64,000 bases of DNA. It comes from an uncultured Eubacterium sp. (GTDB lineage: Bacteria; Bacillota; Clostridia; Oscillospirales; Acutalibacteraceae). A program made the translations under genes and the position numbers. The stretch is taken from the NCBI RefSeq assembly GCF_945980375.1, contig NZ_CAMFQO010000001.1:1-64000 (forward strand), given 5' to 3'. Positions within the stretch are counted from its first letter, which is position 1; each line of letters starts with the position of its first letter. Below, piece after piece: positions 11,592 to 57,960 of this stretch. The notes beneath the pieces were generated by a model. It was not told where the DNA came from. It saw nothing but the letters and a program-made list of their open reading frames with translations, and searched no databases.

Positions 11592-12081
11592 TTGCCCTTT
11601 TTATTGGTTTTCGCTGCCTACTATACGAGAGGACTTTTTATCTCATTTGAACCTTTATAACTTAATATACCTTATAACAAATACCTTCCCGTTATTGTTT
11701 CTGAAGAACAGGGACAAGCAGCTTAAGTACAGCAGAAAGTAGTTCTTACTTTCTGCTTGTTGACTTTGAACTATTGGTGGTTCCAATAGGTATGCGATGA
11801 CAGATAACGGGTATAATGATACTTCTGTCCAGTCAAAAGTCGAGCGTGATAAAACCGTCGCAACCAAAGAGGGCAGCTCGGAGAGATCCTCGGAGTGGTG
11901 AGATTCCAATGATAAGGCTAACCGGCCTTAGTTTGTTATATGCCCTATGTTGTCAGGGGTGTCGTGGACAAATATGACATTACGCAAAACAACTTTATTA
12001 TTTAGGGTACAGACTTACATTAAACAGATATATCTGTATGCTACAATCAGTCTGTACTCTTTTACATACAGGAGGAATATT
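11592..12081. other. 490-bp gap between the sigma-like gene and mazF
   Basis: No convincing gene is present. An 11-bp hairpin (AGCAGAAAGTA/TACTTTCTGCT) sits at 11731-11757. A 34-codon ORF without an RBS reads 11797-11901 and ends GSSERSSEW. It may be the end of a lost gene, since the whole stretch looks like element junction debris. The last 75 bp hold the nested palindromes listed separately. Confidence 0.4.
12007..12057. promoter_or_regulatory. Nested palindromes upstream of mazF
   Basis: An inner 14-bp palindrome, ACAGATATATCTGT (12024-12037), lies almost concentrically inside an outer inverted repeat, GTACAGACT/AGTCTGTAC (12007-12015 and 12049-12057). The set ends about 25 bp before the mazF start. 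Toxin-antitoxin promoters are usually autoregulated through such sites. The binding protein is unknown because no antitoxin gene is seen. Confidence 0.4.
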
Positions 12082-16841: not shown

Positions 16842-16868
16842 AAGGCTACGGTTTTCCGTAGCCTTTTT
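16842..16868 (+). terminator. Terminator after the lipoprotein gene (left copy)
   Basis: AAGGCTACGG and CCGTAGCCTT pair across TTTT and are followed by a T-run. The same 28-nt sequence occurs again, without change, at 17143-17170 on the far side of the structured repeat. Confidence 0.85.
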
Positions 16869-17142
16869 GCGTGTCGAAAAAGTCAAATTATAAATTTCGA
16901 CACGCTGATAGACTGTTGAGAAATGGAGCTGAATTTCGCATTTTGTGAGGGAAGATGTACGAGGGTACCTCGACCGAGCAAAAGGCGAAAAACGCCAAAA
17001 GCGGCTTAGATTCGATGTCTAAGCCGCTTTTACAATCCCTCCGAGTGCGATAAATCGCACCCACCTCCCTTTACACAAGAGAGGCTCAAATAGGTTTGTT
17101 TTATTTATATGGCGTGTTTCAGCCCACTTTATCGACAGTCTG
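16869..17142. repeat. Structured dispersed repeat, copy 1
   Basis: About 273 bp without coding potential. In order: hairpin GCGTGTCGAAA/TTTCGACACGC (16869-16905); AGACTGTTGA (16910) matched by TCGACAGTCT at the right end (17132-17141); small hairpin GGCG/CGCC; 14-bp hairpin at 16997-17031 with loop TTCGATG; 6-bp hairpin GTGCGA/TCGCAC (17045-17060); and GGCGTGTTTCAGCCCACTTTATCGACAGTCT-like right end (17111-17141). Its counterpart is 57662-57930. Stems at the two central hairpins differ between copies but stay paired. Confidence 0.8.
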
Positions 17143-17169
17143 AAGGCTACGGTTTTCCGTAGCCTTTTT
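17143..17169 (+). terminator. Terminator, exact right-hand duplicate
   Basis: Identical to the hairpin at 16842-16868. It lies 13 bp from the stop codon of the convergent MATE gene. Confidence 0.8.
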
Positions 17170-17182
17170 GTTATGTCGTGAT

Positions 17183-36064: not shown

Positions 36065-36077
36065 GAAAATTTTTATA

Positions 36078-36166
36078 TCTCGTCTTCCTACGCTCGCATT
36101 ACCGAACAGGTTAGAAGGGTATAATCTCAGCCAAGATTGAATAATCAATCAGCACCCCTGACTTAT
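36078..36166 (-). ncRNA. TPP (THI-box) riboswitch
   Basis: The minus strand shows the conserved thi elements in order: GTCAGGGGTGC, GGCTGAGATTATACCC, AACCTGTTCGGTAATGCGAG and CGTAGGAAGAC. GTC/GAC close the P1 stem. The terminator at 36035-36064 is the expression platform. It controls the MTH1187-thiXYZ operon. Confidence 0.93.
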
Positions 36167-36203
36167 TAAGTTGAATGTATAATACCACTATTCAATCCAT
36201 ATG

Positions 36204-57632: not shown

Positions 57633-57661
57633 ACGGCACAGTATCTTTACTGTGCCGTTTA
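57633..57661 (+). terminator. ilvC terminator (left copy)
   Basis: ACGGCACAGT and ACTGTGCCGT pair over ATCTTT... and a short T-run follows. The same stem recurs at 57931 with a different loop, on the far side of the structured repeat. Confidence 0.75.
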
Positions 57662-57930
57662 GCGTGTCGAAAAAGTTAAATTATAAATTTCGACACGCTG
57701 GTAGACTGTTGAGAAATGGAGCTGAATTTCGCATTCTTGCGAGTGGGAGCTGTACGATGGTACTGCCCCCGAGCAAAAGGCGAAAAACGCCAAAAACAGA
57801 TTGAACTCGATGTTCAATCTGTTTTTATATCCCCTCAGTCACCTGCGGTGACAGCTCCCCTTTATTGCATAAAAGGGGCGCCAAATATATCTTCTTTTGG
57901 CGTGTTTCAGCCCACTTTATCGACAGTCTG
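57662..57930. repeat. Structured dispersed repeat, copy 2
   Basis: Collinear with 16869-17142. The first hairpin (GCGTGTCGAAA/TTTCGACACGC) and the ends (AGACTGTTGAGAAATGGAGC and TTTATCGACAGTCTG) are nearly identical. The 14-bp hairpin (57792-57826, loop CTCGATG) and 6-bp hairpin (GTCACC/GGTGAC, 57838-57852) use different stem sequences from copy 1 but keep pairing. A CCCCTTT/AAAGGGG stem follows. No coding potential. Confidence 0.8.
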
Positions 57931-57960
57931 ACGGCACAGTCAATGGACTGTGCCGTTTTA
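57931..57960 (+). terminator. Right-hand duplicate of the ilvC terminator stem
   Basis: ACGGCACAGT and ACTGTGCCGT pair with a CAATGG loop, followed by TTTTAT. The arms are identical to those at 57633; only the loop differs. Confidence 0.75.

Follow-up and report, generated by a model that had tools for sequence, protein, structure and literature searches.

The window, that is, the whole 64,000-nucleotide stretch analysed here, carries two copies of a structured repeat on the + strand, each lying between terminator hairpins. The features of the two copies are as follows.

16842..16866, + strand: left terminator hairpin of copy 1, AAGGCTACGG TTTT CCGTAGCCTTT, 25 bp, identical to the right hairpin.
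16867..17142, + strand: putative MITE, copy 1; the canonical ends are CAG...CTG, and the left CAG is TTG in this copy.
16869..16905, + strand: P1, the 5' hairpin, which holds the left terminal inverted repeat GCGTGTCGAAAAAG.
16911..16919, + strand: 5' strand of the closing stem P2; its partner is 17132-17140, in the right terminal inverted repeat.
16934..16990, + strand: P3 arm, with a conserved GTAC-NNNN-GTAC hairpin at the tip.
16992..16996, + strand: 5' strand of P4 (ACGCC); its partner is GGCGT at 17111-17115.
16997..17031, + strand: P5, an internal terminator-like hairpin made up of an A-run, a freely varying stem, a loop that is mostly TTCGAT, and a T-run.
17032..17110, + strand: module D, swappable; the copy-2 version is in part also a stand-alone dispersed repeat found in other genera.
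17132..17140, + strand: 3' strand of P2, within the right terminal inverted repeat CTTTATCGACAGTCTG.
17143..17167, + strand: right terminator hairpin of copy 1, a duplicate of the left one, with a T-run after it.
57633..57659, + strand: left terminator hairpin of copy 2, stem ACGGCACAGT/ACTGTGCCGT, loop ATCTTT.
57660..57930, + strand: putative MITE, copy 2.
57792..57826, + strand: internal hairpin of copy 2.
57931..57957, + strand: right terminator hairpin of copy 2, stem as on the left, loop CAATGG; it scores better against the left hairpin when inverted.

Copy 1 is thus flanked on each side by AAGGCTACGGTTTTCCGTAGCCTTT, and copy 2 by two hairpins that share one stem. Rfam also identified a pemK RNA motif at 11813-11912 of the window (+ strand, 72.8 bits) and a TPP riboswitch at 36068-36169 (- strand, 57.4 bits).

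A sequence-only reading of this DNA had placed a unit of about 270 bp at 16869-17142 and 57662-57930, and BLAST recovered both copies, at 16869-17143 and 57662-57931. The 14-bp stems that it saw varying between the copies (AAAAGCGGCTTAGA/TCTAAGCCGCTTTT versus AAAAACAGATTGAA/TTCAATCTGTTTTT) do pair perfectly in each, around the loop YTCGATG. The repeat is likewise present within its wider span of 16842-17170, but two identical terminator hairpins inside that span, at 16842-16866 and 17143-17167, had been overlooked. As for a 6-bp stem, the pairing stands (GTGCGA/TCGCAC and GTCACC/GGTGAC) but its reading as covariation does not, because the stem belongs to the swapped module D, which is found alone in other genera, so that the two window copies differ here by module replacement. 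The near absence of covariation in module D by RNAalifold leads to the same assignment of the stem. A part of module D in copy 2, CCCCTCAGTCACCTGCGGTGACAGCTCCCCTT (57830-57860 of the window), occurs by itself, whole or mostly and apart from the remainder of the element, in numerous genomes of other genera of the family. Judged from this distribution, it is a dispersed repeat in its own right that the element has taken up as a module.

The host genome (1.77 Mb in 53 contigs) gave 61 BLAST matches to copy 1. In eighteen of these, the palindromic internal stem was matched on the reverse strand, and some others are contig ends or fragments of a single copy. Since such matches inflate the count, we estimate that the genome carries about 30-40 copies; the core covariance model found 30 matches. 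Across the genus, BLAST found matches (E <= 0.001), a part of them short, in 69 of 80 genomes, and the further copies remain paired in their variable stems, so both the existence of more copies in the genus and the persistence of pairing, on which the sequence-only reading had staked its claim, were borne out. The repeat is not a chance resemblance. It is short, present in many copies and without a transposase gene, as is expected of a MITE.

The element runs from CAG to CTG, and its ends are 16-bp imperfect inverted repeats. In the host-genome flanks and in 40 stretches from related genomes, most full copies show the same layout of an A-run, a hairpin, the element, the same hairpin again and a T-run. 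We compared the flanks of 84 unique copies, obtained from 116 readings by dropping 31 opposite-strand or uncertain ones and one duplicate. All 84 have both ends and 50 bp of flank and fall within a detection window of 235-320 bp, so longer forms of the element would escape this set. A 548-bp copy outside it (L117) has a 41-bp repeat with few differences.

The left and right flanks of the same copy resembled each other (local score of at least 13) in 65 of the 84 copies, whereas only 20 of 6972 mismatched pairs did. The repeats adjoin both element ends in 63 of the 65 matching pairs and are exact, loops included, in 28. Their length follows the span of the hairpin (r=0.94, n=60, the subset with a scored left hairpin). 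In 48 of the 84 copies the duplication lies in exact CAG/CTG register and measures 18-36 bp, with a T before CAG and an A after CTG in 41 of these 48. The target site duplication that is typical of MITEs is therefore present in 65 copies and anchored in 48. The end-to-end self-complementarity of the 48 anchored duplications averages 0.78, compared with 0.21-0.30 at shifts of 1-6; since any palindrome scores lower when slid, this control demonstrates only the symmetry of the cut about the dyad.

The remaining 19 of the 84 copies fell below the threshold for flank duplication. Two of them (L055 and L095) have flanks that match when read inverted, and by eye five (L003, L078, L087, L091, and L093) have a left hairpin that differs from the right one, for which recombination between copies is our guess. 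In L016 and L067 the left and right stems are related but altered, L048 (genome G061) has a 10-bp duplication at a site without a hairpin, and the others show little or no flank similarity. In the whole set, eight pairs score better inverted (L031, L051, L053, L055, L066, L074, L076, and L095), and in these the loop seems to be flipped while the stem is unchanged.

Sites without the element, a check that the sequence-only reading had proposed, were found at one locus in two related species (G061 and G059). The joined flanks of copy 2 run unbroken there over positions 1-1174 of 1178 at 82-83% identity, with one terminator behind ilvC whose stem is ACGGCTCGGAAA or ACGGCTTGGAAA. This evidence is a single locus, between species whose terminator stems differ. 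At the same gene, G041 carries the element within its own, different ilvC terminator, G063 carries it in the opposite orientation, and G001 retains a shortened remnant. Element copies thus lie at the ilvC terminators of several species of the genus and in both orientations (window 57633-57957, L164, L165, L166, L171, and L174), which implies at least two, probably three, separate insertion events. Nested insertions were seen as well: in L012 a copy is inserted into the internal hairpin of another copy, and that hairpin is found on both sides, while in L024 such a hairpin is seen on the right side only.

These observations also bear on whether the flanking hairpins could be two terminators selected independently, or homogenised by gene conversion, around an old resident spacer. 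The loops do change fast, some left and right loops differ or are inverted, and some copies have a different hairpin on each side, as that explanation would predict. It is nevertheless already contradicted by the 28 exact duplicates with their loops, by the single terminator at the uninterrupted site in two species, by the nested insertion in L012, and by insertion sequences that show the same pattern, and we regard it as highly improbable.

The insertion sequences in question were located through their transposases. The PF13751 profile (DDE_Tnp_1_6) matched in 9 of 80 genus genomes and had no match in the host genome (0 of 1). Three of three scanned proteins (L153, L155, and L156) matched the NCBIfam IS1182 model (NF033551) with 402-411 bits at a cut-off of 270, as well as PF13751, PF05598, and PF01609; L154 matches PF13751. 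By eye, seven of ten PF13751 loci have a MITE-like end beside a hairpin, some with two or three mismatches to the pattern. Of the rest, L153, although IS1182 by its protein, showed neither such an end nor a hairpin within the examined stretch, L160 has the end and no hairpin, and in L162 an end beside a hairpin was not seen. The only two loci with both ends in view, L154 and L156, have exact hairpin duplications of 24 and 26 bp. Each MITE end is identical to the nearest insertion sequence end at 15 of 16 positions, so the two share their terminal inverted repeats, as MITEs and their partners do; beyond the ends, no similarity is visible between the MITE interior and the insertion sequences. 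The transposase frame of L156 (469-2070) extends beyond the right end of the insertion sequence into the duplicated hairpin.

End-like sites were also searched in five genomes, and many lie at contig ends in G033 and G018, where they read TCAGCCTGTMGAAAAAG or TCAGCTTGTCGAAAAAG next to hairpins. To judge from these sequences, this is probably a sign of a longer repeat that was collapsed in assembly. In G033, four exact pairs of 25-31 bp occur among 12 contig-end flanks, with about 53 bases per repeat and the body out of view. In G018, the bases inside the contig-end repeat encode KMMVKRRELNRGQIEMVDVDS, similar by eye to the beginning of the L156 transposase. PF13751 had no match in either genome. 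Six further end-like sites of the host proved to be remnants or to match coding sequence by chance, and a transposase gene was not seen beside them (ORFs were listed for one stretch, and the others were read near the end). Collapsed assembly may also hide some insertion sequence copies and with them a resident transposase of the host. The presence of PF13751 in 9 of 80 genus genomes, against 69 of 80 for the MITE, is a point against these insertion sequences as its partner.

Some of these features could also suggest a retroelement or SINE-like route, with an RNA copied from a nick next to the terminator; terminators are used by group IIC introns as well. Terminator targeting, a structured body and 5'-truncated copies would all fit. 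We consider this the least probable of the alternatives, and barely credible, because both ends share the terminal inverted repeats of IS1182 elements and because the truncations seemingly occur mostly at recurrent points near P1 rather than at random. Identity as a group II intron, including a group IIC intron, was not supported, as Rfam gave no group II intron match in the 64,000-nt window.

The copies, the ends, the duplicated hairpins and the uninterrupted site together support a non-autonomous mobile element, one of the possibilities raised by the sequence-only reading. Its proposal of movement as single-stranded DNA or RNA was not supported in that form, since the ends shared with IS1182 elements and the duplicated target favour a DDE transposase acting on DNA. 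On the same evidence, with the uninterrupted site, the repeat is very probably a MITE of about 260-290 bp, moved in trans, most likely by IS1182-family (DDE) transposases that recognise hairpins.

In the mechanism that we propose, the transposase would be guided to its target by a hairpin in the DNA, not by sequence, and would bind the 16-bp ends CAGCGTGTCGAAAAAG and CAGACTGTCGATAAAG. An intrinsic terminator in hairpin or cruciform form would then receive these ends at both of its 5' feet, and fill-in of both single-stranded hairpins after joining would duplicate the entire hairpin. A site of the form A-run, hairpin, T-run would become A-run, hairpin, MITE, hairpin, T-run. With the A-run left and the T-run right of the insertion, the left hairpin should stop leftward transcription and the right hairpin rightward transcription, and transcripts would gain a structured tail of 275 nt. 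The fold would most likely serve harmless insertion in transcripts, or the presentation of the ends. The inferred parts of this scheme are mobilisation in trans, the attack on the 5' feet, continued termination and the role of the fold. The inverted hairpins are unexpected from plain fill-in and are a point against this explanation, which is otherwise our best.

We next describe the fold of the element body. An alignment of 341 columns was made from 29 elements less than 88% alike; one of the 30 representatives (L079) was left out for a run of N. It supports a nested structure of 70 pairs with the P1 hairpin, the P2 stem closed with the right end, a three-way split into P3 and P4, and the terminator-like P5. 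Over the 29 elements, 95.3% of the cells are paired, compared with 37.8-43.8% when the structure is slid. Changes on both sides occur in 36 of the 70 pairs, a number that none of 500 shuffles reached, though the shuffles ignore relatedness. The covariation score is 0.301, against at most 0.074 for slid versions, and again 0 of 500 shuffles were as high. All 12 pairs of P5 have changed on both sides, around a loop that is mostly TTCGAT or TTCAAT. These values support the earlier claim that selection acts on single-strand folding, and the core pairing is kept by selection, probably at the level of the element.

A pseudoknot in the core was considered and rejected, as the minimum free energy structure is nested and a nesting check confirmed this. 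Folding energy was likewise rejected as a guide to the strand, because each of the two strands gives a good fold (z -9.2 and -10.9). Neither window copy matched an Rfam family above its gathering score, the best sub-threshold match being RsaE with 25.2 bits against 79 (copy 2), and membership of a known Rfam family was rejected for both. G.T cells outnumber A.C cells on the + strand by 68 to 20 over all helices and by 35 to 18 without P2, an excess that amounts to a mere lean to the + strand since related sequences are not independent and the structure was partly fitted on that strand.

The gene context was read from mechanically called ORFs. Of 63 copies, 57 have an ORF called on both sides, and these contexts are convergent in 28, tandem in 28 and divergent in one; in 56 of the 57 the element follows the end of at least one ORF. 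This context agrees with the proposed mechanism. Neither a sense nor a lagging-strand bias was found, the tandem contexts comprising 10 in sense (++) and 18 in antisense (--). Eleven host-genome copies begin inside the element. Six of them (L018, L019, L020, L021, L032, and L034), which are without the 5' hairpin and the left terminator, stand in sense behind an upstream + frame that is open over 552-990 nt and has its stop 1-20 nt before the first matched base. L044, at a contig start, is a candidate for the opposite truncation. From this arrangement, the 5' truncation may be directional, with the core kept as a 3' UTR. L022, L024, and L044 form a longer subfamily with an extra module of about 100 bp in the P3 arm.

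Searched over the host family, the core model matched in 44 of 398 genomes; these matches, whose E-values are approximate, cover 19 of 135 genera. Thirty of these loci were obtained and the last 24 listed (L302-L325) were examined. Under a strict rule, seven of the 24, from seven genera, share the ends of the element and have an anchored duplication of the hairpin. Three loci (L306, L311, and L319) have the ends and a hairpin duplication by eye, which with the strict seven makes nine genera; the genus of L302 is not independent, since L081, one of the 29 model elements, comes from the same genome. The pattern of ends and duplication was not found in scans of the other 14 loci. Among named records, at least 102 stretches carry the 3' end pattern, and most of the 80 listed, which include Clostridium sp. 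CAG:217, are MAGs from uncultured Clostridia of the gut; a few matches outside lack the core. One viral contig (L295, from IMG/VR) matches the 3' end pattern exactly and, on this match, may be a prophage that carries the element.

The fold, the context and the distribution have to be weighed together when asking why the structure is kept. The element could primarily be a functional structured RNA, either a 3'-UTR element or a small RNA, that spreads by means of IS1182 ends and whose fold is kept, by the host or by the element, for its role as RNA. The strong covariation, the largely conserved loop, the conserved unpaired stretches, the G.T excess, the occurrence of the core model in 19 genera and the six copies fused in sense behind a gene all speak for such a role. 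However, the tandem contexts are no less often antisense than sense, the T-run of P5 could terminate + transcripts before the 3' half, the z-scores are alike on both strands, and there is no Rfam relative; by eye, no promoter conserved across copies was noticed in P1, the 5' hairpin. A primary RNA function therefore seems to us possible but rather unlikely.

Alternatively, the fold could be needed as DNA, where an excised or lagging single strand would set both ends in the neighbouring duplexes P1 and P2 for a transposase with a preference for hairpins. When the + strand folds, each end does supply one side of a duplex, these two duplexes lie next to each other, and the transposase group has hairpin targets. 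In column pair 10/47, moreover, the left end is divided 15 to 14 between A-T and C-G, with the partner changing along. Against this, an orientation bias toward the lagging strand is lacking (10 ++ versus 18 --, assuming that genes are mostly co-oriented with replication), a comparable body was not seen in the insertion sequences, and DDE enzymes normally move double-stranded DNA. We consider a DNA role for the fold unlikely, and less probable than the RNA role. As set out above, a MITE moved by IS1182-type transposases, whose fold most likely serves its harmless insertion in transcripts or presents its ends, is the reading that we prefer.

Among known systems, the closest are members of the IS1182 family. 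IS1272, the best studied of them, and TnSha1 delete or replace hairpin targets, according to passages of the two reports concerned (Furi et al. 2016 PMC4923244; Wan et al. 2017 PMC5678879). They and the present element have in common an IS1182-family transposase, 16-bp ends, and hairpin targets without a sequence consensus, several of them terminators, with insertions behind genes. They differ in that, as those passages describe it, IS1272 cuts or replaces the hairpin and produces no target duplication, whereas the whole hairpin is duplicated both at the MITE and at the IS1182 elements with near-identical ends; replacement of the stem-loop as by IS1272 was therefore rejected for the MITE. The published model has the stem-loop removed when a DDE transposase joins the ends at the 3' feet of a cruciform, as with IS1272, and offers an attack on the 5' feet (pathway b), which would duplicate it, as a possibility (PMC5678879). 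Our data fit this 5'-feet attack. ISCbo5, an IS1182-family element of Clostridium botulinum group III and C. novyi, resembles the MITE in its insertion at terminator hairpins behind genes: in the relevant passages, all of its sites but one are hairpins at gene ends, probably stopping transcription, and a 'surrounding hairpin' is mentioned (PMC3098183). ISCbo5 is, unlike the MITE, autonomous, and those passages contain no explicit hairpin duplication and no MITE.

A search of open-access papers, within the parts of them that were available, found no IS1182-type MITE and no documented duplication of a whole hairpin. The EFAR repeats of Enterococcus are short palindromic sequences behind stop codons that act as two-way terminators, and we know of neither hairpin duplication nor IS1182 ends in them. 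The BOX, RUP, and SPRITE repeats of Streptococcus pneumoniae are modular and structured and are mobilised by other families of insertion sequences; their sequences differ from those described here, and to our knowledge none of them duplicates a whole hairpin. They do resemble the present element as clustered intergenic repeats that are inserted into one another, with SPRITE being terminator-like, as far as the passages at hand describe them (PMC10969869).

We tentatively put forward, at less than even odds and as a broader hypothesis, that structure-directed transposition has a branch in which the hairpin is duplicated. In it, the IS1182 transposases found in gut Clostridia would act on a terminator in cruciform form and join at both 5' feet, so that the hairpin sets the length of the duplication, and the occasional inverted hairpins would be left over from an intermediate with hairpin ends. 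The body of the MITE would be a selfish folded RNA or single strand that covaries and is found with these ends in at least nine genera.

Dozens of natural insertions fit the hairpin-duplicating outcome, which is merely a possibility in the IS1272 model, and the reading of DNA shape by a DDE transposase could be tested by ordinary plasmid assays. The family itself is structured, has no credible counterpart in Rfam and was matched by the core model in 19 of the 135 sampled genera of the host family; it cautions that covariation in a bacterial repeat does not necessarily indicate a free-standing RNA gene. For the host, the proposed mechanism would explain how a mobile element can spread harmlessly through a small genome, as the terminator that it splits is duplicated and termination can work both ways.
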